From Bradyrhizobium sp. CB2312 (GTDB lineage Bacteria; Pseudomonadota; Alphaproteobacteria; Rhizobiales; Xanthobacteraceae): a DNA stretch of 64,000 nt. Both the position numbers and the translations under genes were made by a program. Location: contig NZ_CP121668.1 of the NCBI RefSeq assembly GCF_029714425.1, positions 3,679,501-3,743,500 on the forward strand, read 5' to 3'. The notes beneath the pieces are model-generated. The model was given only the letters and a program-made list of their open reading frames with translations, made no database searches and was not told where the DNA came from. Each line of letters opens with the position of its first letter. The stretch's first letter is position 1. Of the stretch, positions 53,471-63,977 are shown piece by piece.

Positions 53471-55780
53471 ATGGCGGCTCCCATCAAGTTCGGCGTTGGC
53501 CAAAGCGTGCTGCGCAAGGAGGATGACGCGCTCATCCGCGGCAAGGGCCGCTATACCGACGATTACGCGCCGCAAGCCGCGCTGCGCTGCCTGATGCTGC
53601 GCTCGCCGCATGCCCATGCCAAATACACCATCGATGTCAGCCGCGCCCGTACGCTGCCGGGCGTCGCGCTGATCCTGACCGCCGATGACGTCAAGGATCT
53701 CGGCAATCTGCCGTGCCTGTTCAATCTCGAGACCGATCCCTTCACCGGCCCGCCTTACCCGATCCTCGCCAAGGACGAGGTGCGCCATGTCGGCGATTCC
53801 ATCGCCTTCGTGGTCGCCGAGACCATCGACCAGGCGCGCGACGCGATCGAGGCCATCGACGTCAAATGGTCGCCGCTGTCGGCGGTGACCGGCGTCGTCA
53901 ATGCCGTCAAGAAGGGCGCGCCGCAGGTCTGGCCGGACAAATCAGGCAACGTGCTGTTCGACGTCTCGATCGGCGACAAGGCCGTGACCGAGGCCGCGTT
54001 TGCCAAGGCGCATGCGGTGGCCGAGATCTCCATCGTGAACCCGCGCGTGGTCGCAAGCTTCATGGAGACGCGCGCGGCGGTGTGCGAATACGATTCCAAG
54101 CGCGACCACCTGACGCTAACGGTCGGCAGCCAGGGCAGCCATCGCCTGCGCGACATCCTCTGCCAGAACGTGCTCAACATCCCCACCGACAAGATGCGGG
54201 TGATCTGCCCCGACGTCGGCGGCGGCTTCGGCACAAAGCTGTTTCCATACCGGGAATATGCCCTGATGGCGGTCGCTGCGCGCAAGCTGAAGAAGGCGGT
54301 GAAATGGGCGGCCGACCGCTCCGAGCATTTCATGGGCGATGCGCAGGGCCGCGACAACGTCACCACCGCAAAAATGGCGCTGGCCGAGGACGGCAAATTC
54401 CTCGCCATGGATTGCGACCTGATGGGCGACATGGGCGCGTATCTCTCCACCTTCGGGCCCTACATCCCGCATGGCGGCGCCGGCATGCTGCCGGGCCTTT
54501 ACGACATCCAGGCCTTCCACTGCCGGGTGCGCACCATCTTCACCCACAGCGTGCCGGTTGACGCCTATCGCGGCGCGGGCCGGCCCGAGGCGGCCTATGT
54601 GATCGAGCGCCTCGTCGACGCTTGCGCGCGAAAACTCGACATGACGCCGGACGCCATCCGCCGCAAGAATTTCATCCCGCCGAAGGCGCTGCCCTACAAG
54701 ACGGCCACTGGCAAGGTCTACGATTCCGGCGACTTCGCCGCGCATCTCAAGCGCGCGATGGAGATCGCCGACTGGAAGGAATTTCCAAAGCGCGCCAAGG
54801 CGGCCAAGAAGGGCGGCCTGATCCGCGGCATCGGGCTTGCGAGCTATGTCGAGATCTGCGGCGTGATGGGTGAGGAGACGGCCAATGTCCGCCTCGATCC
54901 CAATGGAGACGTCACCGTCCTGATCGGCACGCAGTCGAGCGGGCAGGGCCACCAGACCGCCTATGCGCAGATCGTCGCCGAGCAGTTCGGCGTCGCGCCA
55001 GAGCGGGTCCACGTCCGTCAAGGCGATACCGACGAGATCGCGACCGGCCTCGGCACCGGCGGCTCGGCATCGATCCCGTCAGGCGGCGTCAGCGTCGAGC
55101 GTGCCACGCGCGAGCTCGGCTCGAGGCTGAAGGAGATCGCGGCGCAGGCGCTGGAGGCGAGCGCCGGAGACCTCGAGATTTCGGAAGGCGTGGTGCGCAT
55201 CGCCGGCACCGACCGCTCGATCTCCTTCGCCGACCTTGCCAAGCGGCCCGGCGTCGATCCGTCGAAGCTCAACGGCAGCGCGACGTTTGCCAGCGCGGAC
55301 GGTACCTATCCGAACGGCACCCATGTTGCGGAGGTCGAGATCGATCCGGCGACCGGCATCATCAAGATCGTCAACTACGTGATTGTCGACGATTTTGGCA
55401 AGACGCTCAATCCGCTGCTGCTGGCGGGGCAGGTGCATGGCGGCGCCATGCAGGGCATCGGCCAGGCCTTGATGGAGCAGGTGGTCTATGGCGCGGGCGA
55501 TGGCCAGCTCATCACCGCGACCTTCATGGACTACGCGCTGCCGCGCGCGGCGGATGGTCCGGCCTTCGTGTTCGAGACCAACAACGTCCCCTGCAAGACC
55601 AATCCGATGGGGGTGAAGGGTGCGGGCGAGGCCGGCGCGATCGGCTCCTGTCCGGCCGTGGTCAACGCCATCGTCGATGCGCTATGGCGCGAATACAAGA
55701 TCGACCACATCGACATGCCGGCGACCCCGGAGCGGGTGTGGATCGCCATCAGCGAGCACCACCGCCGTCACAGCCTTTGA
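53471..55780 (+). CDS. Molybdopterin-binding xanthine/aldehyde oxidase-type large subunit (CoxL form II-like)
   Basis: A 769-aa subunit of the xanthine oxidase family binding the Mo–molybdopterin cofactor. Seen: GQSVLRKEDDALIRGKGRYTDDY at the start, VGGGFGTKLFPYREYAL, the active loop AYRGAGRPEA (Ala365–), the cofactor-ligand VKGAGEAGAIG with catalytic Glu720. AYRGAGR is the form II (not the CO-oxidising form I, AYxCSFR) motif, so CO dehydrogenase is unlikely; aldehydes or N-heterocycles are more likely substrates. The medium (FAD) and small (2Fe–2S) subunits are not adjacent, so it is an orphan or uses partners elsewhere. Cytosolic. Confidence 0.88.
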   Translation: MAAPIKFGVGQSVLRKEDDALIRGKGRYTDDYAPQAALRCLMLRSPHAHAKYTIDVSRARTLPGVALILTADDVKDLGNLPCLFNLETDPFTGPPYPILAKDEVRHVGDSIAFVVAETIDQARDAIEAIDVKWSPLSAVTGVVNAVKKGAPQVWPDKSGNVLFDVSIGDKAVTEAAFAKAHAVAEISIVNPRVVASFMETRAAVCEYDSKRDHLTLTVGSQGSHRLRDILCQNVLNIPTDKMRVICPDVGGGFGTKLFPYREYALMAVAARKLKKAVKWAADRSEHFMGDAQGRDNVTTAKMALAEDGKFLAMDCDLMGDMGAYLSTFGPYIPHGGAGMLPGLYDIQAFHCRVRTIFTHSVPVDAYRGAGRPEAAYVIERLVDACARKLDMTPDAIRRKNFIPPKALPYKTATGKVYDSGDFAAHLKRAMEIADWKEFPKRAKAAKKGGLIRGIGLASYVEICGVMGEETANVRLDPNGDVTVLIGTQSSGQGHQTAYAQIVAEQFGVAPERVHVRQGDTDEIATGLGTGGSASIPSGGVSVERATRELGSRLKEIAAQALEASAGDLEISEGVVRIAGTDRSISFADLAKRPGVDPSKLNGSATFASADGTYPNGTHVAEVEIDPATGIIKIVNYVIVDDFGKTLNPLLLAGQVHGGAMQGIGQALMEQVVYGAGDGQLITATFMDYALPRAADGPAFVFETNNVPCKTNPMGVKGAGEAGAIGSCPAVVNAIVDALWREYKIDHIDMPATPERVWIAISEHHRRHSL

Positions 55781-55912
55781 GTTCAAGCCGAACCAAATCA
55801 TCCCAAATGCGACGATTGATCGCCGCGCTTGGGATGGAATGAAATCTGCCATGCGGTGTTGGCCCCATTGTGGGGTCAGCACGATCCTGTCTCAGCGAAA
55901 GGGATTTTGCGA

Positions 55913-56359
55913 ATGAAGCGAGTGTTGGTTGTTGCGGGCGCGCTGCTGCTCGGCATGGGCGCCGTCTGGGCGGAGCAGGAGACCGTCAAGGAGGTCCAGA
56001 CGCTCATGAAGGGCAATGGCAAGAATGCCGGCGCGGTTGCGGCGATGGTCAAGGGCGAGAAGCCCTACGATCAGGCCACGGTCGACGCGGCGCTGGCGCA
56101 GTTCGCGGACACCGCCAAGAAGCTGCCGAACCTGTTTCCGGCCAGCGCCAAGGGCGTGAAGCTCGACGGCGATTACTCGGCCTCGCCGAAGGTGTGGGAG
56201 GACAAGGCCGGCTTCGACGCCAAGGCCGCAAGCTTCGCCAAGGTCGTCAGCGAGGCCAAGGGCAAGATCAAGGATTTGGATTCTCTGAAGGCGAATTTCC
56301 CCGCGGTCGGCAAGGAATGCGGCGGCTGCCACGAGACGTTCCGCGTGAAGAACGGCTGA
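55913..56359 (+). CDS. Cytochrome c' (class II c-type cytochrome)
   Basis: A 148-aa periplasmic heme protein. A signal peptide (residues 1–20, ending VWA) precedes a four-helix bundle, and the heme-binding Cys136-Gly-Gly-Cys139-His140 lies near the C-terminus, as in cytochrome c'. Members bind NO and CO or carry electrons. ATG 55913 is preferred over a much longer frame beginning at 55829. It is 132 bases downstream of the hydroxylase gene and ends in a strong terminator. Confidence 0.9.
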   Translation: MKRVLVVAGALLLGMGAVWAEQETVKEVQTLMKGNGKNAGAVAAMVKGEKPYDQATVDAALAQFADTAKKLPNLFPASAKGVKLDGDYSASPKVWEDKAGFDAKAASFAKVVSEAKGKIKDLDSLKANFPAVGKECGGCHETFRVKNG

Positions 56360-56381
56360 GGCTTTCGTAGCCCGGAATCGC

Positions 56382-56408
56382 AAGGGCGGCTGTAAAGCAG
56401 CCGCCCTT
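56382..56408 (+). terminator. Intrinsic terminator after cytochrome c' gene
   Basis: aagggcggctg (56382–56392) and cagccgccctt (56398–56408) pair perfectly (11 bp, five-base loop), and the downstream strand runs into ttttcgtt. Confidence 0.9.
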
Positions 56409-56489
56409 TTTCGTTGCCTTGCGTGTCGCGGCTGGACGCAGGCCGACTTTCGTAGGACACTGCGAACGAAATGCTTCGAGGTCCGTATC

Positions 56490-57278
56490 GTGCCGCGCCA
56501 TGTCGTATGCCTGTTTGCCGTTCTGATCGCTGTCCTGTTCGCGCCCGAGGTGAGAGCGGCCGATCTCAAGGTGATGATCTCGGCCGGCTTCTTCAACGTG
56601 TACAAGGAGCTCGTGCCCGCGTTCGAGGCATCGACGGGACACAAGCTCGTCACCACGCGCGGACCTTCGATCGGCGATTCGCCGGAGGCGATCCCGACGC
56701 GCCTGGCGCGCGGTGAGGATGCCGATGTCGTGATCATGGACGGCGTCGGGGTCGATCTCCTCGACAAGCGCGAGCTGACGCGCTCCGGCAGCCGCATTCA
56801 GCTCGCGCAATCGTTCATCGGCATGGTGGTTCGCGCGGGTCAGCCCAAGCCCGACATCAGCACGATGGACGCGCTGCGCAAAACACTGCTTGCGGCCAAA
56901 TCCATCGCCTATTCGGATAGTTCGAGCGGCACCTATCTGTCGACGGTCGGCTTCAGAAAGCTCGGCGTTGCCGACGAGATCGCCGGCAAGACGCGCAAGG
57001 TACCCGGTCCGCCCTCGGGCGAGCCGGTGGCGGCCGTCGTTGCCCGCGGCGAGGCGGAGATCGGATTCCAGCAGGTCGCCGAACTCATGCATGTTCCGGG
57101 CGTCGATCTCGCGGGCACGGTGCCATCAGAGATCCAACCGCCGACTTACTACGTCGGCGCGTTGCCGAAGAATTCGCAGCATCGCGAGGCCGCAATCGCC
57201 CTGCTGAATTTTTTGTCTTCAGCGGACGCAGCAGCGGCCATCACCAAGGCCGGGTTGAAGCCGCTGCCGGCGCACTGA
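56490..57278 (+). CDS. ModA-like periplasmic substrate-binding protein
   Basis: A 262-aa protein with a signal peptide (residues 1–23, VRA-AD) and a type II periplasmic-binding fold. It has LKVMISAGFFNVYKELVPAF, LARGEDADVVIMDGVG, SIAYSDSSSGTYLSTVGFRKLG, and GEAEIGFQQVAELM, typical of ModA-like oxyanion-binding proteins. No permease or ATPase gene is adjacent, so transport is not proven; similar stand-alone members exist. The GTG at 56490 is the best start in this frame. Possible molybdate or tungstate binding fits the Mo-related genes nearby (inference). Confidence 0.78.
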   Translation: MPRHVVCLFAVLIAVLFAPEVRAADLKVMISAGFFNVYKELVPAFEASTGHKLVTTRGPSIGDSPEAIPTRLARGEDADVVIMDGVGVDLLDKRELTRSGSRIQLAQSFIGMVVRAGQPKPDISTMDALRKTLLAAKSIAYSDSSSGTYLSTVGFRKLGVADEIAGKTRKVPGPPSGEPVAAVVARGEAEIGFQQVAELMHVPGVDLAGTVPSEIQPPTYYVGALPKNSQHREAAIALLNFLSSADAAAAITKAGLKPLPAH

Positions 57279-57465
57279 AAACCGGCCGGCGCGTCCGGCA
57301 CGTCGTCGTTGCGTGATCTGGAGGCCGTACATTGCGTGCGATGAGTAGCGGCTTCCGCTTGGTTTGATGCGAGCCGTCGGAACCGGCGTACCCGATTCCG
57401 ATTGCTTCAGCATCGCGAAAGCTCAGGCGCGGCGCGCATCTCGATCAGGACCAGCGAGGCAAGCC

Positions 57466-58749
57466 ATGGCAAAACCGTTCCCGTCGAAGACCCACATCGG
57501 CAACCATATGCTGCATCCGGAAACGCTGATGCTGACCTATGGCTATGATCCGCAGCTCTCCGAAGGCGCCATCAAGCCGCCGGTGTTCCTGACCTCGACC
57601 TTCGTGTTCAGGACGGCCGAGGACGGGCAGGACTTCTTCGATTTCGTCTCCGGCCGGCGCGAGCCGCCGGAGGGGATGGGCGCGGGCCTCGTCTATTCGC
57701 GCTTCAACCATCCCAACAGTGAGATCGTCGAGGACAAGCTCGCGGTCTACGAGCGCACCGAGAGCTGCGCGCTGTTCTCGTCCGGCATGGCGGCGATCGC
57801 AACCACGATCCTCGCTTTCGTCCGGCCGGGCGACGTCATCCTGCACTCCCAGCCGCTCTATGGCGGGACCGAAACGCTGCTGACGAACACGCTTGCACGG
57901 CTGTCGATCGGCGCCGTCGGCTTCGCCGACGGTGTCGACGAAGCGGCTGTCAGCCAGGCCTCCGGGGAAGCCATGGGCAAGGGCCGCGTCACGATGATCC
58001 TGATCGAGACGCCGGCCAACCCGACCAACGGTCTCGTCGACATCGCGATGATCCGGCGCGTCGCCGAGGCGATCGGAAAGGCGCAAGGGCACACGCCTGT
58101 CATCGCCTGCGACAACACGCTGCTCGGGCCGGTGTTTCAGCGGCCGATCGAGCATGGCGCGGATATTTCGCTGTACTCGCTGACCAAATATGTCGGCGGT
58201 CATTCCGACCTGATCGCGGGCGCCGCGCTCGGCAGCAAGGCGACCATGAAGGGCATCAAGGCGCTGCGCGGCGCCATCGGCACCCAGCTCGACCCGCATT
58301 CCTGCTGGATGATCAACCGCTCGCTGGAGACGCTGAGCCTCCGCATGGAGAAAGCCGATGCGAATGCCCGCCTCGTCGCGGACTTCTTGCGCGACCATGC
58401 CAAGGTGGCGAAGGTGCATTACCTCGGTCATCACGAGGAGGCCTCGCCCGCGGGGCGCGTGTTCGCAAAGCAGTGCCTGGGGGCCGGATCGACGTTCTCG
58501 TTCGACATCGTCGGCGGCAAGGACGCGGCGGTGAAATTCCTCAACGCGCTACAGATCTTCAAGCTCGCGGTGAGTCTCGGCGGAACGGAGTCGCTCGCCA
58601 GCCTGCCGGCGACGATGACTCATTCCGGCGTTCCCGCCGACATCCGGCAGAAAATCGGTGTGCTCGATTGCACGATCCGGCTGTCGATCGGCATCGAGAA
58701 TCCCTCGGACCTGATCGCCGATCTCGGCCAGGCGCTGAACGCCGCCTGA
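57466..58749 (+). CDS. Cystathionine gamma-synthase-family PLP enzyme (Cys/Met metabolism)
   Basis: A 427-aa PLP enzyme of the CGS/methionine gamma-lyase/O-acetylhomoserine sulfhydrylase family. The cofactor phosphate site is in [24 protein letters not shown] follows, [38 protein letters not shown] carries the Schiff-base Lys in the LTKY motif, and [12 protein letters not shown] closes the C-terminal domain. ATG 57466 is chosen because homology begins at [13 protein letters not shown]; upstream frame codons are not conserved-looking. The exact reaction (elimination or replacement) cannot be read from the sequence. Confidence 0.85.
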
Positions 58750-58881
58750 TCATGCTTAAAGCGGATAGGACGCGCGGCACGCCGACATGATCGCGGCGGC
58801 GGCCTCGTTGCTCTGCGCACCGAGCGCCGGCAAGGCACCGGTCCTGGAATTGCCGGACTGCGACATCTTCGCTCAAATTGA

Positions 58882-58915
58882 AAAGGCCGGATGCGCCGCC
58901 GCGCGCCCGGCCTTT
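58882..58915 (-). terminator. Terminator of the CHRD gene
   Basis: aaaggccgg (58882–58890) pairs with ccggccttt (58907–58915). On the minus strand the hairpin is followed by ttcaattt, correct for the CHRD gene ending at 58934. Confidence 0.75.
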
Positions 58916-58933
58916 GCCGATGAAGCAGTCTTC

Positions 58934-59350
58934 TTACTTCGTCACCTGTCCCCGGATCTCGCCGCCCGGATTGGCCGCGGTGTGGATGTTGACGTAGAGC
59001 TTGCCGGCGAGGAGATCGGCGGCCTGCGCGTCGGTCAGCGTCGCCGAGCCCTCGACCGGGCTGTTGGCGGCGCCGGGGATCGGGACCATGACGCCGGCGT
59101 TCTTGCCGGCCTCGGCCGGGCCGTGGAAATGCGCGGCGGTGGCGGGGCCGGACAGGCCGGAATAGGTGACCTTCCAGGACAGCTTCTTGCTGGCGGCGTC
59201 ATAGTCCAGATCGGCCGTCCCCGTGCCGCTGCTGGTCGTCGCCGGCACCTCGGCCTTGCCGTCGAGCGTTGCTTTCAGCTTTTCGGCGCTGGCCGAGCCT
59301 GTAAAAGCCAAAGTGCCGAGTGCGAACACGGCGATCACGGTCTTGTTCAT
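58934..59350 (-). CDS. CHRD-domain secreted protein
   Basis: A 138-aa protein with signal peptide (residues 1–22, SASA-E) and one CHRD domain: LKATLDGKAEVPATTSSGTGTADLDYD, LSGPATAAHFHGPAEAGKNAGVMVPIPG, and the C-terminal AGKLYVNIHTAANPGGEIRGQV, the family hallmark. CHRD domains occur in secreted bacterial proteins of unknown function, possibly metal- or adhesion-related. The ATG at 59350 (M-N-K-T-V) is preferred over an upstream in-frame start at 59392. Confidence 0.9.
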   Translation of the reverse strand: MNKTVIAVFALGTLAFTGSASAEKLKATLDGKAEVPATTSSGTGTADLDYDAASKKLSWKVTYSGLSGPATAAHFHGPAEAGKNAGVMVPIPGAANSPVEGSATLTDAQAADLLAGKLYVNIHTAANPGGEIRGQVTK

Positions 59351-59495
59351 GACATTCTCCCTGGTGACCTCGTTGGATTGCCAAACTTTCAACAGCCACC
59401 GTTTCAGTTTATTCCCGTTGCCGCCGGGGACGGACTAAATTCTTCGTGGCTGGAGCCGCGCGGAGAGAGGTCATAGGCTTACCGCAACCGCGTGG

Positions 59496-60431
59496 ATGGA
59501 CTTGATGTTGCAACGAACAATGATCGCGGCGCTGCTCGCAGCAATCGCAGCCGGTGGTGTCTATTGGTGGCTCAGCGCGCCGGTGATAGCCGCCGCGAGC
59601 GCCGCGCCGGCCCATGTCCCGAACCTTGCCAATGGCGAGGTGATGTTCAACGCCGGGGGCTGCGCGTCCTGCCATGCCGTTCCCGGCCAGGACGATCGTC
59701 TCAAGCTCGGCGGCGGTGTCGCGATCAAGTCGCCGTTCGGAACGTTCTACGCGCCGAACATCTCGCCCGATCCGGGCGATGGCATCGGCAAATGGGGAGA
59801 GGCCGATTTCGTCAACGCGGTGATGCACGGGGTCTCACCCAGCGGTCAGCATTACTTTCCGGCGTTTCCCTACACCTCCTATCAGCACGCCAGGCGCGAG
59901 GACGTGCTCGACCTCTTCGCCTATCTGAAAACGCTGCAGCCAGTTGCAGGCAAGGTGCGCGACCATGACGTGCGCTTTCCCTTCGACATCCGCCGCAACA
60001 TCGGCATCTGGAAATTCCTGTTCATGGACGGCAAGCCGTTCGTCGCGGACGGCAGCAAATCACCGCAGTGGAATCGCGGCGCCTATCTCGTCAACAGCTT
60101 TGGCCATTGCGCCGAGTGCCACAGCCCGCGCAACGCGCTCGGCGGCATCATTTCCGGCGAGCGCTTTGCCGGCGGCCCCAATCCGGAAGGCGAGGGCTGG
60201 GTGCCCAACATCACGCAGAAGCGCCTCGGCGAATGGAGCGCCAAGGACATCGCCTATTTCCTCAAGACCGGCGAATTGCCCGACGGCGACAGCGTCGGCG
60301 GCGCGATGACGCGCGTGATCAAGAACACCTCGCAATTGCCGGACGAGGATATCGCGGCGATGGCCGAGTACATCAAGTCGCTGCCGCCGGTGGACGGCCC
60401 GACGCCGCCCAAGCGCAAGGCAGCAAGCTAG
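59496..60431 (+). CDS. Diheme cytochrome c
   Basis: A 311-aa protein with an N-terminal membrane anchor or uncleaved signal (residues 8–30) and two class I heme sites: Cys56-x-x-Cys59-His60 (GCASCH) and Cys205-x-x-Cys208-His209 (HCAECH). It resembles periplasmic electron carriers and cytochrome subunits of dehydrogenases such as alcohol, gluconate or aldehyde dehydrogenases, and could accept electrons from a molybdo-flavoprotein; this is inference. It is divergent from the CHRD gene. A start at 59505 is also possible. Confidence 0.88.
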   Translation: MDLMLQRTMIAALLAAIAAGGVYWWLSAPVIAAASAAPAHVPNLANGEVMFNAGGCASCHAVPGQDDRLKLGGGVAIKSPFGTFYAPNISPDPGDGIGKWGEADFVNAVMHGVSPSGQHYFPAFPYTSYQHARREDVLDLFAYLKTLQPVAGKVRDHDVRFPFDIRRNIGIWKFLFMDGKPFVADGSKSPQWNRGAYLVNSFGHCAECHSPRNALGGIISGERFAGGPNPEGEGWVPNITQKRLGEWSAKDIAYFLKTGELPDGDSVGGAMTRVIKNTSQLPDEDIAAMAEYIKSLPPVDGPTPPKRKAAS

Positions 60432-60442
60432 CGAACGCCGCG

Positions 60443-60688
60443 CTAGCCGGCGCCGAACGCCTTGAAGGTGATGATGGTGAGGGTGTCCTGGATACCCGGC
60501 AGCACCTGCACCTTCTCGTTGATGAAGTGGCCGATGTCGGTGTCCTTGTCGACGTAGAACTTCACCAGCAAATCGTAATGGCCGGCGGTGGAGTAGATCT
60601 CGGAGGCGATCTCGGCTTCGGCAAGCGCATTGGCGACCGTATAGGACTGGCCGAGCTTGCATTTGATCTGGACGAAGAAAGGAACCAT
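60443..60688 (-). CDS. Stand-alone AsnC/Lrp ligand-binding (RAM) domain protein
   Basis: An 81-aa protein, MVPFFVQIKCKLGQSYTVA to TIITFKAFGAG, which is only the alpha/beta ligand-binding domain (RAM) of Lrp/AsnC regulators: no HTH is present. Stand-alone RAM domains bind amino acids and can modulate full-length regulators or enzymes. ATG 60688 was chosen because family members start at MVPFFVQ; a start three codons upstream is possible. Convergent with the diheme cytochrome gene (12 bases apart). Confidence 0.85.
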   Translation of the reverse strand: MVPFFVQIKCKLGQSYTVANALAEAEIASEIYSTAGHYDLLVKFYVDKDTDIGHFINEKVQVLPGIQDTLTIITFKAFGAG

Positions 60689-60786
60689 TGCAGTCACTCC
60701 GAAGGCATATTGTTCCCGCTAATAGGCCAAAAGCGGCCGGGATTGGCAAGCGAACTTGCCGGCGGCGGGGATAAGCCGCCTGCGGC

Positions 60787-60876: not shown

Positions 60877-62856
60877 CTAGGAAGTGACGGCGGCCGCGGC
60901 AAACGCCTCCCTGAGCCGCTGCGCGAGCTCGGCCTTGCGATAGGGCTTGGTCAGCAGGATCGCCTGGGCATGCGCACGGCCCTGCTCGACCAGGGTCTCC
61001 AGCGCGTAGCCGGAGGTGAACAGGACCGGCAGGCCGGGGCGAATCCGCCGCGCCTGCTCGGCGAGCTCCCAGCCGCTCATGCCGCCGGGCATCACGATAT
61101 CGGTGAACAGCATGTCGATGCCGGGATCGGACCGCAGCCGCTGCAAGGCCTCCTTGCCGTTGACCGCGGCAACGACGCTATAGCCGAGCGCTTCCAGCCT
61201 GCGAATCGCGGAGGAGCGGACGAACGGATCGTCCTCCGCGATCAGGATCGTCTCATATCCGCGCGGCGCCGCCTCCTCGCCGTCGGCAAGGTCGCCCGCA
61301 GATGGTCCCGCGTCGGCGCGCGGCAAATAGATCCGGACCGTCGTGCCCAGGCCCTGCTCGCTGTAGATCGAGACATGGCCGTCGGATTGCTTAGCGAAGC
61401 CATAGACCATGCTCAGCCCGAGGCCAGAACCCTTGCCGACCTCCTTGGTGGTGAAGAACGGCTCGAAGGCGCGCTCGATGACACCAGGCGTCATGCCTTC
61501 GCCGTCGTCGGTGACCGCGATCATGGCGTAGCTGCCGGATGCGACTTCAGGGTGAAGGGCGCGATAGTCCTCGTCGATCGCGGCCAGTTCCGTGCTCAGC
61601 GTCAGATGTCCTCCTGACGGCATCGCATCCTGCGCGTTGAGCGCAAGGTTCAGCACGGCGGATTCGAGCTGGGCGCGGTCGGCAAAGGCCAGGATCGTGC
61701 CGGGGCCGGAGCCCGTCCTGATCTCGATGTCCTCGCGCAAGGTGCGCTTGAGCAGCTTGAACATGGACTCGAGCAGATTGCGGCAATCGATGGTCTGCGG
61801 CTGGAGCAGCTGGCGGCGGCTGAAGGCGAGCAGCCGCTGCGTTAGCTCGGCGCCCCGTTCGCCCGACAGGCAGATGTCGTCGGCAAACCGCCGCAAGTCG
61901 GGCCTTGCCTTGAGCTGCTCGCTTAGATGCTCGGCGTTGCCGATGATGACGGTGAGGAGATTGTTGAAGTCGTGCGCGATGCCGCCGGAGAGCTGGCCGA
62001 CCGTCTCCATCTTCTGCGCCTGCTGGAGCTGCTGCTCGGTGAACTTGCGCGCGGTCAGGTCGTGGACGATGCCGACGTAGATCAGTTCGCCTTCCTGCCA
62101 CGCCTGGCCCACTGACAAATCCATCGGAAAGCTCGATCCGTCCTTGCGCAGACCGACGGCTTCCCCGGTCGCGAAACGCCGCACATGCCCTGTGGAGGAG
62201 GGGCTCTCCCGGCCGGACATCAGCATGCCGATGTCGAGATTCATGACCTCGTCGGTGCGGTAGCCGAACAGCCGTTCGCAAGCGGGATTGAACAGGAGAA
62301 TGCGGGCTTGCGCGTCGAACAGGATGACCCCGTCGACCGCGGTCTCGACGATTGCGCTGAGGCGCACCATGCTTTCGCGCATCGCGCGCTGGGCCTCGCC
62401 GACCTGCTTGAGCAGCTGTGTCGCGTCCCGGCGCTTGATCTCCTCCTCCTCGAGCGCAGCCTGGACCTGCCGCAGCTCGAACGGAGAGGGGATCGTCAGG
62501 ATCTTCGGCAGCAGCGGCCAGAGCGCGCCGGCGGTGAAGATGGAGGCCGCGGCCGTGTCCGCCTTGACGAGGCCCTCGATGCCGTAGATCGGGACCCAGA
62601 GCGTGTAGATCGACAGCACATGAGTGAGGCCGCAGGCCATGATGAAGATCGCGAACGCCCAATACACCCAACCGAATTTGAGATCGCGCCGCTTGGTGAC
62701 GAAAATGGCGAGGGCGAACGGAATCGAGAAATAGGCGGCGGCGATGATCGCGTCGGAGACGACATGGAGCCAGATCAGTTCGGGTTCCCACAATAGGCAG
62801 ATGCCGTGCGGCGAGAACATCGAGGAGTCGAGGATACGTTCGAGAAAGGCCCACAT
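60877..62856 (-). CDS. Hybrid sensor histidine kinase with an ethylene-receptor-like membrane domain
   Basis: A 659-aa protein. Residues 25–125 form three membrane helices whose pattern equals the ethylene-binding domain of plant ETR1: Asp35, Tyr42, Ile45, Pro46, Ile72, Cys75 and His79 sit at exactly +10 relative to ETR1 Asp25, Tyr32, Ile35, Pro36, Ile62, Cys65 and His69, the copper/ethylene ligands and key residues. Then a PAS domain (about 160–270), DHp domain with His295 ([10 protein letters not shown]), an HATPase domain ([15 protein letters not shown]), and a receiver domain with phospho-acceptor Asp586 (LFTDIV). The ATG at 62856 is preferred over 62877. It could sense ethylene or a related small ligand through copper. 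No dedicated response regulator is adjacent. Confidence 0.88.
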
Positions 62857-63176
62857 GGTTCCACCCCAGGCTGGCATTCGAGGTTTCGCGGGCCAGGGCG
62901 GCCCGCTGGTGCCGTTGGACGGGTCCCGCCGCCCAACGTCTCACGCATGGACACACACGCCGAACGCGAGACCATACCAAGGGGACGGCGCGGTTGCATT
63001 TTGCAAGCCCGCACGATTGCTAGACGCCGGTGCCGCGCCGGATCGGCTCCACCTGATTCGCGGGGCCGTCAGCACAGCGAATCACGGCTGCCCGCCGCCC
63101 GCAACGCTTGCTGGCGTTCGACGGCCGCGCTAGGACAGGTCATGGCGCTGTCCGTATCAAGCAGAAGTATCCCGCG
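62857..63176. other. Gene-free divergent intergenic region between the kinase and thiD
   Basis: About 320 bases of GC-rich sequence with no supported gene. It must carry promoters for both directions, but no clear -35/-10 pairs or riboswitch fold (for example no TPP-riboswitch core) are seen. Two short words, ctctcgagcgaga-like, do not make convincing hairpins. Confidence 0.4.
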
Positions 63177-63977
63177 ATGACGACGCCGGTCGCGCTCACC
63201 ATCGCCGGCTCGGATTCGAGTGGCGGCGCCGGCATCCAGGCGGACCTGAAGACCTTTGCCGCGCTCGGCGTCTACGGCGCCTCCGCCATTACGGCGCTGA
63301 CGGCGCAGAACACGCGCGGCGTCACCGGCATCCATGCGGTGCCGGCCGATTTCGTCACCGCGCAGATCGACGCGGTGTTCTCCGATCTCGAAGTCGGCGC
63401 GGTGAAGATCGGCATGGTGGCCCAGGCCGCCAGCATCGATGCGATCGCGGCCGCGCTGACGCGGTGGAAGCCCGGCCATATCGTGCTCGATCCCGTGATG
63501 GTCGCGACCTCCGGCGACCGCCTGCTGGCATCCGAAGCCGTGGACGCGCTGCGCGCGAAACTGATGCCGCTGGCTTCCGTGATCACGCCCAATCTGCCGG
63601 AGGCCGCCGCGCTGCTCGACGAGCCGGTTGCGGCCGGTGAGGCCGAGATCGAGCGTCAGGGCCGCCGCCTGCTTGCGCTCGGCTGCCGCGCGGTGCTGAT
63701 CAAGGGCGGCCACGGCGAGGGGGCAGAGAGCATCGACTATCTCGTCGATTCCAAGAAAACGATCGCACTTGCCGCCCCGCGCGTTGCCACACGCAACACC
63801 CATGGCACCGGCTGCTCGCTGTCCTCGGCCGTCGCGGCCGGGCTGGCCAAGGGCGAGGATCTCGAGCGCGCCGTGCAGGGCGCCAAGGCCTGGATCAGCG
63901 CGGCGATCGCCGCCGCCGACCGCTTCAGCGTCGGCCACGGCCACGGACCGATCCATCATTTCCACAAGTTCTATTGA
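63177..63977 (+). CDS. thiD: Hydroxymethylpyrimidine/phosphomethylpyrimidine kinase ThiD
   Basis: A 266-aa cytosolic ribokinase-fold enzyme that phosphorylates HMP and HMP-P for thiamine synthesis. Marks are [25 protein letters not shown] at the start, [34 protein letters not shown] and [22 protein letters not shown], holding the catalytic Cys and anion hole. ATG 63177 (gcgatga) is used because the family begins at this point and an upstream open frame is not conserved-looking. It stands close to the window end, and no thi partner is adjacent. Confidence 0.93.

Follow-up and report, generated by a model that had tools for sequence, protein, structure and literature searches.

A probable Cu(I)-dependent ethylene receptor kinase of bacterial type in Bradyrhizobium sp. 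CB2312

The window analyzed in this study, a 64,000-nucleotide stretch of the Bradyrhizobium sp. CB2312 genome taken as a whole, contains on its minus strand a gene for a hybrid histidine kinase with the residue signature of the plant ethylene receptor ETR1 in its N-terminal domain (Table 1). This observation, first made in a sequence-only reading of the DNA, is confirmed. The longest open reading frame from a first ATG spans 62877..60877; however, among 12 aligned sequences (the window and 11 relatives) the ATG at 62877 occurs in the window alone, while the ATG at 62856 is kept in all 12. The latter is therefore the better start, as had been assumed. Pfam matches and predicted helices also bear out the layout proposed earlier, a three-helix sensor joined to PAS–HisKA–HATPase–REC. 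The ETR1_N profile (Pfam PF25487) is matched with an E value of 3.5e-37 and 127 bits against a cut-off of 27, and the kinase and receiver motifs are complete in the sequence (H, N, G1, F, and G2 boxes; receiver Asp and Lys), as expected of a histidine kinase output with intact catalytic motifs. The genome consists of one contig of 9.78 Mb and has a single ETR1_N gene.

Table 1. Features of the receptor locus, in window coordinates
Feature	Position	Strand	Basis or remark
Receptor gene, 659 aa + stop	62856..60877	−	Start codon kept in 12/12 aligned sequences
PHGxCxxW motif, residues 16–23, preceding helix 1, beyond Pfam domain limits	62788..62811	−	Row counts
ETR1_N sensor domain, residues 26–121	62494..62781	−	Pfam PF25487
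Helix 1 signature residues D35, Y42, I45, P46	62719..62754	−	Translation and alignments
Helix 2 signature residues I72, C75, H79	62620..62643	−	Translation and alignments
PAS domain, residues 165–266	62059..62364	−	Pfam; FixL = nearest solved relatives
HisKA, residues 287–349, H-box HDFNN at 295	61810..61998	−	Pfam and motif inspection
HATPase_c, residues 393–514; N, G1, F, G2 boxes intact	61315..61680	−	Pfam and motifs
Receiver domain (Response_reg), residues 537–648; acceptor D586 and K637 present	60913..61248	−	Pfam and motifs
thiD, phosphomethylpyrimidine kinase, divergent neighbor	63108..63977	+	Flanks receptor in 22/24 named loci
84-aa stand-alone Lrp/AsnC ligand-binding domain, downstream	60443..60697	−	Flanks receptor in the same 22/24 loci

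The placement of the receptor between thiD upstream and the AsnC-type gene downstream recurs in 22 of 24 named sensor loci (L032–L055). These belong to Bradyrhizobium and one unclassified Bradyrhizobiaceae bacterium, and are 73–89% identical to the window receptor. Of the two remaining loci, L047 has thiD and the AsnC-type gene at one spot some 1.5 kb away from the receptor, and L051 has neither. When the window's own locus is taken together with the 30 best-scoring loci of a profile search of the genus, thiD lies within the short flank in only 7 of 31, which indicates that strongly matching receptors occupy more than one genomic place.

The output half of the protein resembles a known type of kinase. 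Hybrid kinases from Bradyrhizobium and other bacteria (L056–L073) share its PAS–HisKA–HATPase–REC type of core, with 66–74% identity in the kinase core. They align mostly from about residue 140 onward (L058 and L061 from residue 42), and the profile search gave no sensor-domain row for any of them. From this pattern the receptor gives the impression of an ETR1_N domain joined to a FixL-like/CckA-like hybrid-kinase chassis. Among solved structures the kinase is best matched by 5idj, named only as a histidine kinase, and second by 5idm (CckA); in NCBIfam, the scores for CckA membership (334.5 and 309.4 bits) both fall below the cut-off of 1000.

The nearest solved relatives of the PAS domain are FixL haem domains, and it could be argued that this domain is the real input, responding to oxygen, redox state, or another ligand, with the membrane domain an anchoring relic. 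The close kinship of the kinase core to L056–L073, which came without a sensor-domain row, is in keeping with such an arrangement. However, when the three best solved FixL chains are aligned, the FixL segment carrying the haem-binding His lies opposite a gap of some 10 residues in the window PAS, a place where L056–L073 keep a stretch of FixL length (by eye). Oxygen sensing by the window PAS was rejected as a candidate function, given that the haem-ligand stretch is missing from it although FixL is nearest. Moreover, the sensor signature survives unbroken in all 60 relatives compared, which is unexpected of a relic, and two Bradyrhizobium relatives with no PAS match (L013 and L003) retain the sensor. 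It is very improbable that the PAS domain is the real input.

The seven ETR1 residues had been placed at a uniform offset of +10, and they are found exactly there in the translation (D35, Y42, I45, P46, I72, C75, and H79). In an alignment with three plant ETR1-type receptors and with AzoEtr1, the ethylene receptor of Azospirillum brasilense, each of the seven falls on its counterpart. The profile score, together with 34% identity to a plant receptor over 102 residues (E 2e-17), excludes a chance likeness. All seven are retained in 60 of 60 related Bradyrhizobium rows, which are best or nearest matches and include a few cases of one genome fetched twice. They are likewise present in 120 of 120 ETR1-like matches listed for a plant query, these being the best 120 of 897 found and, where named, from plants. 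Seven out of seven is nevertheless what homology predicts here, and its weight should be judged with caution: 45 sensor-domain positions are invariant among 55 aligned rows, 38 of them besides the seven.

A broader comparison covered 180 distinct sensor rows, six short rows and exact duplicates having been dropped beforehand. The full signature is present in 112 of these, a further 20 keep the Cys and His, and 48 have lost one or the other. Across the 132 rows retaining both, D35, Y42, I45, P46, and I72 are each 94–98% conserved, and the non-ligand Tyr, Ile, Pro, and Ile 95–98%. Phe68, Phe71, Gly76, Thr101, and Ser105 are at least as conserved as the signature, so conservation alone is no proof of ethylene as the ligand.

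A model of the membrane domain, proposed earlier as a check, was obtained with AlphaFold from an 80-sequence alignment and displays three confident helices (residues 25–55, 62–87, and 91–112) and a linker helix from residue 125, with a mean pLDDT of 91.7. Confidence is lower around the PHGxC region that precedes helix 1 (pLDDT 61 for residues 11–20 and 80 for residues 21–30). Neither Foldseek nor VIA turned up a convincing solved relative for the membrane domain. Simple helix arithmetic puts D35, C75, and H79 at 12–18 Å from the presumed outer ends of the helices, and the signature residues of each helix span about 100° or less. Helices 1 and 2 are joined by a loop with the basic residues K55, R56, R57, and K60, which suggests a cytoplasmic position for the loop and a periplasmic one for the N-terminus.

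The sensor of AzoEtr1 (strain Sp7) is 50% identical to that of the window protein over 138 of 140 residues, in an alignment free of gaps across the first 120 residues and more. The two proteins have in common the seven residues, the PHGxC motif, a PAS domain, and a histidine kinase; over whole proteins the identity is 32% at 521 aligned positions. According to the Azospirillum study (PMC11819568), AzoEtr1 residues 1–130 expressed in yeast show saturable ethylene binding, disruption mutants bind little or no ethylene, and the receptor affects biofilm formation and root colonization. The same study describes AzoEtr1 as having no receiver of its own, its gene being followed by a separate response regulator gene (PMC11819568), whereas REC is fused in the window protein. 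The AzoEtr1 gene is plasmid-borne, in contrast to the window receptor beside thiD in a single-contig genome.

Cyanobacterial ETR1_N proteins, the SynEtr1 kind, were compared as a group. They have the three-helix sensor, retain all seven residues in 29 of 33 rows, and form their own branch in the sensor tree. Several occur per genome, with up to nine matches (G1182, G1152, and others in the cyanobacterial sample); the maximum seen in Bradyrhizobium is five. Members of the plant ETR1 family carry the seven residues in register, and in many of them a histidine kinase and receiver make up the C-terminal part, but they have a GAF domain where the window protein has PAS, and the sensor identity is 34%. 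The window protein has no GAF match in Pfam and, with C20 alone, no CxC motif; it may work like the plant ETR1 subfamily while lying outside it.

In intact bacterial sensors a near-invariant PHGxCxxW motif stands outside the Pfam ETR1_N domain. Its His and Cys are present in 108 of 112 full-signature bacterial rows (the remaining four are gapped at that place), in 14 of the 20 further rows keeping the signature Cys and His (four gapped, two with another letter), and in 32 of 33 rows from the cyanobacterial sample. None of the 120 ETR1-like rows listed for the plant query, out of 897, has the pair ahead of the signature Asp, and 118 of these have C4 and C6 in its place. Plant C4 aligns with C20 of the window protein, and in the published ETR1 model C4 and C6 form inter-chain disulfides (PMC6586836). 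The His and Cys are also retained in 28 of 48 rows without the signature Cys or His. The motif is thus typical of bacterial sensors yet does not depend on the presence of the copper ligands, and a structural role seems likelier than one as a copper relay.

By best score, the genomes of the genus with an ETR1_N match divide into a strong group of 147 (best E below 1e-30) and a weak group of 34, a few of which have broken matches only. The sensor tree was built from 122 columns for 127 rows, and its bootstrap had not settled. In it, the weak-group Bradyrhizobium rows come together on a single supported branch (98/100), which also includes a row from the class sample with a very long branch; the window's group does not resolve into one clade with its nearest relatives. 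Of 34 distinct weak-group rows (L113–L119 and L218–L246, 3 of 30 loci having yielded no row), 31 have DFxAxCR at the binding site (5/7 and 26/27 in two sets), with the copper-ligand His replaced by Arg, Tyr by Phe, and Pro by Ala. Two proteins of this clade run in Pfam (L116 and L218) comprise ETR1_N, HisKA, HATPase, and REC with no PAS match, and the thiD neighborhood occurs in none of seven altered-clade loci with flanks of about 5 kb.

Such a consistent replacement across many species looks like changed function and not decay, as if the ligand or the metal had changed, and would mean that the fold tolerates other uses in the same genus. The altered clade is a natural collection of variant sites, with which one could ask what residues an ethylene receptor needs. 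It is interesting to speculate that Bradyrhizobium employs an enlarged family of ETR1-type sensors as a panel for gases, in which the window type reads ethylene by means of copper, the DFxAxCR clade reads another ligand or works without copper, and the outer PHGxC motif of bacteria takes the part of the plant CxC in disulfide formation or copper entry; as a whole this proposal is tentative and rather unlikely to hold. A separate long-branched clade with members from the Bradyrhizobium and Rhizobium johnstonii families (L123–L125 and L252–L255) keeps the signature mostly or wholly and has nothing aligned at PHGxC; in L125, HisKA_2 follows ETR1_N. Three frames of 142–195 residues (L133, L135, and L137) have ETR1_N, complete in its signature, but lack an output domain (checked in Pfam for L133 and L135), and are either stand-alone proteins or receptors split in two.

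The likeness to the AzoEtr1 sensor, the seven residues, and the intact kinase motifs support an ethylene/copper-type sensor kinase, and this part of the sequence-only interpretation stands. We consider it probable, with good confidence, that the gene product acts in the inner membrane as a Cu(I)-dependent ethylene receptor kinase of bacterial type and signals along the following route. The three helices would build a dimeric site in which C75 and H79, aided by D35, hold Cu(I), and ethylene would bind the copper. C75 and H79 are the expected ligands by analogy with ETR1, for which the model assigns copper to C65 and H69 and has D25 touch it infrequently (PMC6586836). The signal would pass through the helical linker to the FixL-like PAS without its haem segment and on to the CckA-like kinase, and phosphate would move from H295 to D586 of the fused receiver and then probably to an HPt protein. 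The best candidate for the latter is the single HPTransfase (ChpT-type) match of the genome, although this partnership is a guess. On the model of AzoEtr1 and SynEtr1, the effect of ethylene is probably a reduced kinase output, and the target would most likely be surface attachment and carbon/nitrogen balance, as in Azospirillum.

A site of this kind might also bind Cu(I) but serve to sense the supply of copper, the redox state, or a different small gas or olefin, with ethylene binding incidental or absent. The ETR1 model, with copper on C65 and H69 and D25 seldom in contact (PMC6586836), is compatible with this, as are the genes for c-type cytochromes and a molybdopterin dehydrogenase near the receptor, the altered site of the sister clade, and a strong match without a clear tie to nodulation genes. 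It is harder to reconcile with the 95–98% conservation of the non-ligand Tyr, Ile, Pro, and Ile among sensors that keep Cys and His, and with the ethylene binding of the tested alphaproteobacterial relative, as reported in PMC11819568. Such a reading is clearly unlikely, and ethylene is retained as the preferred ligand.

In many legumes nodulation is held back by ethylene, and ACC deaminase (acdS) allows bacteria to lower the plant's ethylene. The distribution of the receptor was set against nodC and acdS. ETR1_N occurs in 181 of 265 Bradyrhizobium genomes, one per species, and in 50 of 248 genomes sampled from the window's family, genus included; the class and phylum samples, both of which contain the window genome, gave 20 of 289 and 23 of 299, and the cyanobacterial phylum sample 45 of 146. 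Within the family of R. johnstonii it was found in 6 of 180 genomes, strain 3841 itself being negative. The receptor is thus a Bradyrhizobium trait, and the "rhizobial" scope given to it earlier is too wide. Some matches are truncated or split between frames (G263:C1:3695874-3696148, G099:C2:1057353-1057487, and G039:C4:7638496-7638699), which looks like loss of the gene in places within Bradyrhizobium. None of 14 control genomes gave an ETR1_N match; nodC was matched in 13 of them and acdS in six, none over cut-off, and counts of these two genes were accordingly restricted to matches over cut-off.

A strong ETR1_N match is present in 83 of 135 nodC-bearing and 64 of 130 nodC-less Bradyrhizobium genomes (Fisher p 0.049, relatedness not corrected), and any match in 97 of 135 and 84 of 130 (p 0.24, again not corrected for relatedness). 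A link with nodulation is weak at best on these figures. A link with ACC deaminase was also discarded, acdS being too common (over cut-off in 232 of 265 genomes) to be informative. The window genome has acdS, and its nodC lies at C1:8390321, 4.6 Mb from the receptor.

With a strong match barely linked to nodulation genes, sensing of the host's ethylene is only one option, and the suggestion of a plant-ethylene sensor made from sequence is a conjecture: strong matches are found at similar rates with and without nodC, and sensors are common in the cyanobacterial sample. The receptor may instead respond to ethylene as a soil or microbial gas, that is, a general soil cue and not a host symbiosis signal. 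Beyond the occurrence in 64 of 130 nodC-less against 83 of 135 nodC-bearing species and the frequency among cyanobacteria (45/146), this is favored by the thiD/AsnC site common to 22 of 24 named loci and by the distance of nodC in the window genome, and the Azospirillum study considers this option too (PMC11819568). The slight excess in nodC-bearing species (p 0.049, uncorrected) points the other way, as does the near-universal acdS (232/265), by which ethylene seems to matter to these bacteria, and species without nodC may still live on plants. The chance of a general soil cue approaches, but does not quite reach, an even one. The single ETR1_N gene means that one gene deletion in a Bradyrhizobium strain can test ethylene sensing by this nodule-forming symbiont of the soil.

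The papers listed in the literature searches (titles and abstract openings) contained no Bradyrhizobium ethylene receptor, no bacterial ethylene receptor together with rhizobia, and no mention of PF25487, although an earlier mention in subscription journals is likely. Putative ethylene receptors in many plant-associated proteobacteria are noted in the Azospirillum paper (PMC11819568). The statement that such a role is poorly described is correct for Bradyrhizobium within that literature, but it passed over the proof in Azospirillum, another plant-associated alphaproteobacterium (PMC11819568). This kind of receptor is already proven in bacteria; what the present analysis adds is the distribution across Bradyrhizobium, a sister clade with a changed site, and the PHGxC motif on the outer side.

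Several minor features of the locus and its relatives were noted. No Rfam family reached its gathering score within the window. A sigma-54 promoter for AzoEtr1 was suggested by the Azospirillum authors (PMC11819568); between the receptor start and thiD no match was found at two or fewer mismatches, and the 74 matches in the whole window compare with 70 expected, i.e. chance level. A sigma-54 promoter for the receptor was rejected on both counts. An apparent fusion of receptor and AsnC-type gene in P0036 was likewise set aside, since its sequence past the G2 box is unlike the receptor (by eye, against P0022), and it is read as a frameshift. One Bradyrhizobium protein has a sensor 98% identical to that of the window protein; another protein, with a sensor 91% identical (P0072), is recorded as coming from Frankia sp. 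RB7, whose name is that of an actinobacterium, and the record is possibly mislabelled or contaminated. Near the receptor, positions 53471–60431 of the window encode a protein bearing two cytochrome c stretches, a CHRD protein, a cytochrome c', a molybdopterin dehydrogenase, and a solute-binding protein. In 22 named loci the neighboring cytochrome c gene falls into two identity groups (69–77% in 16 and 83–88% in six), as if it had been replaced in part among the loci.
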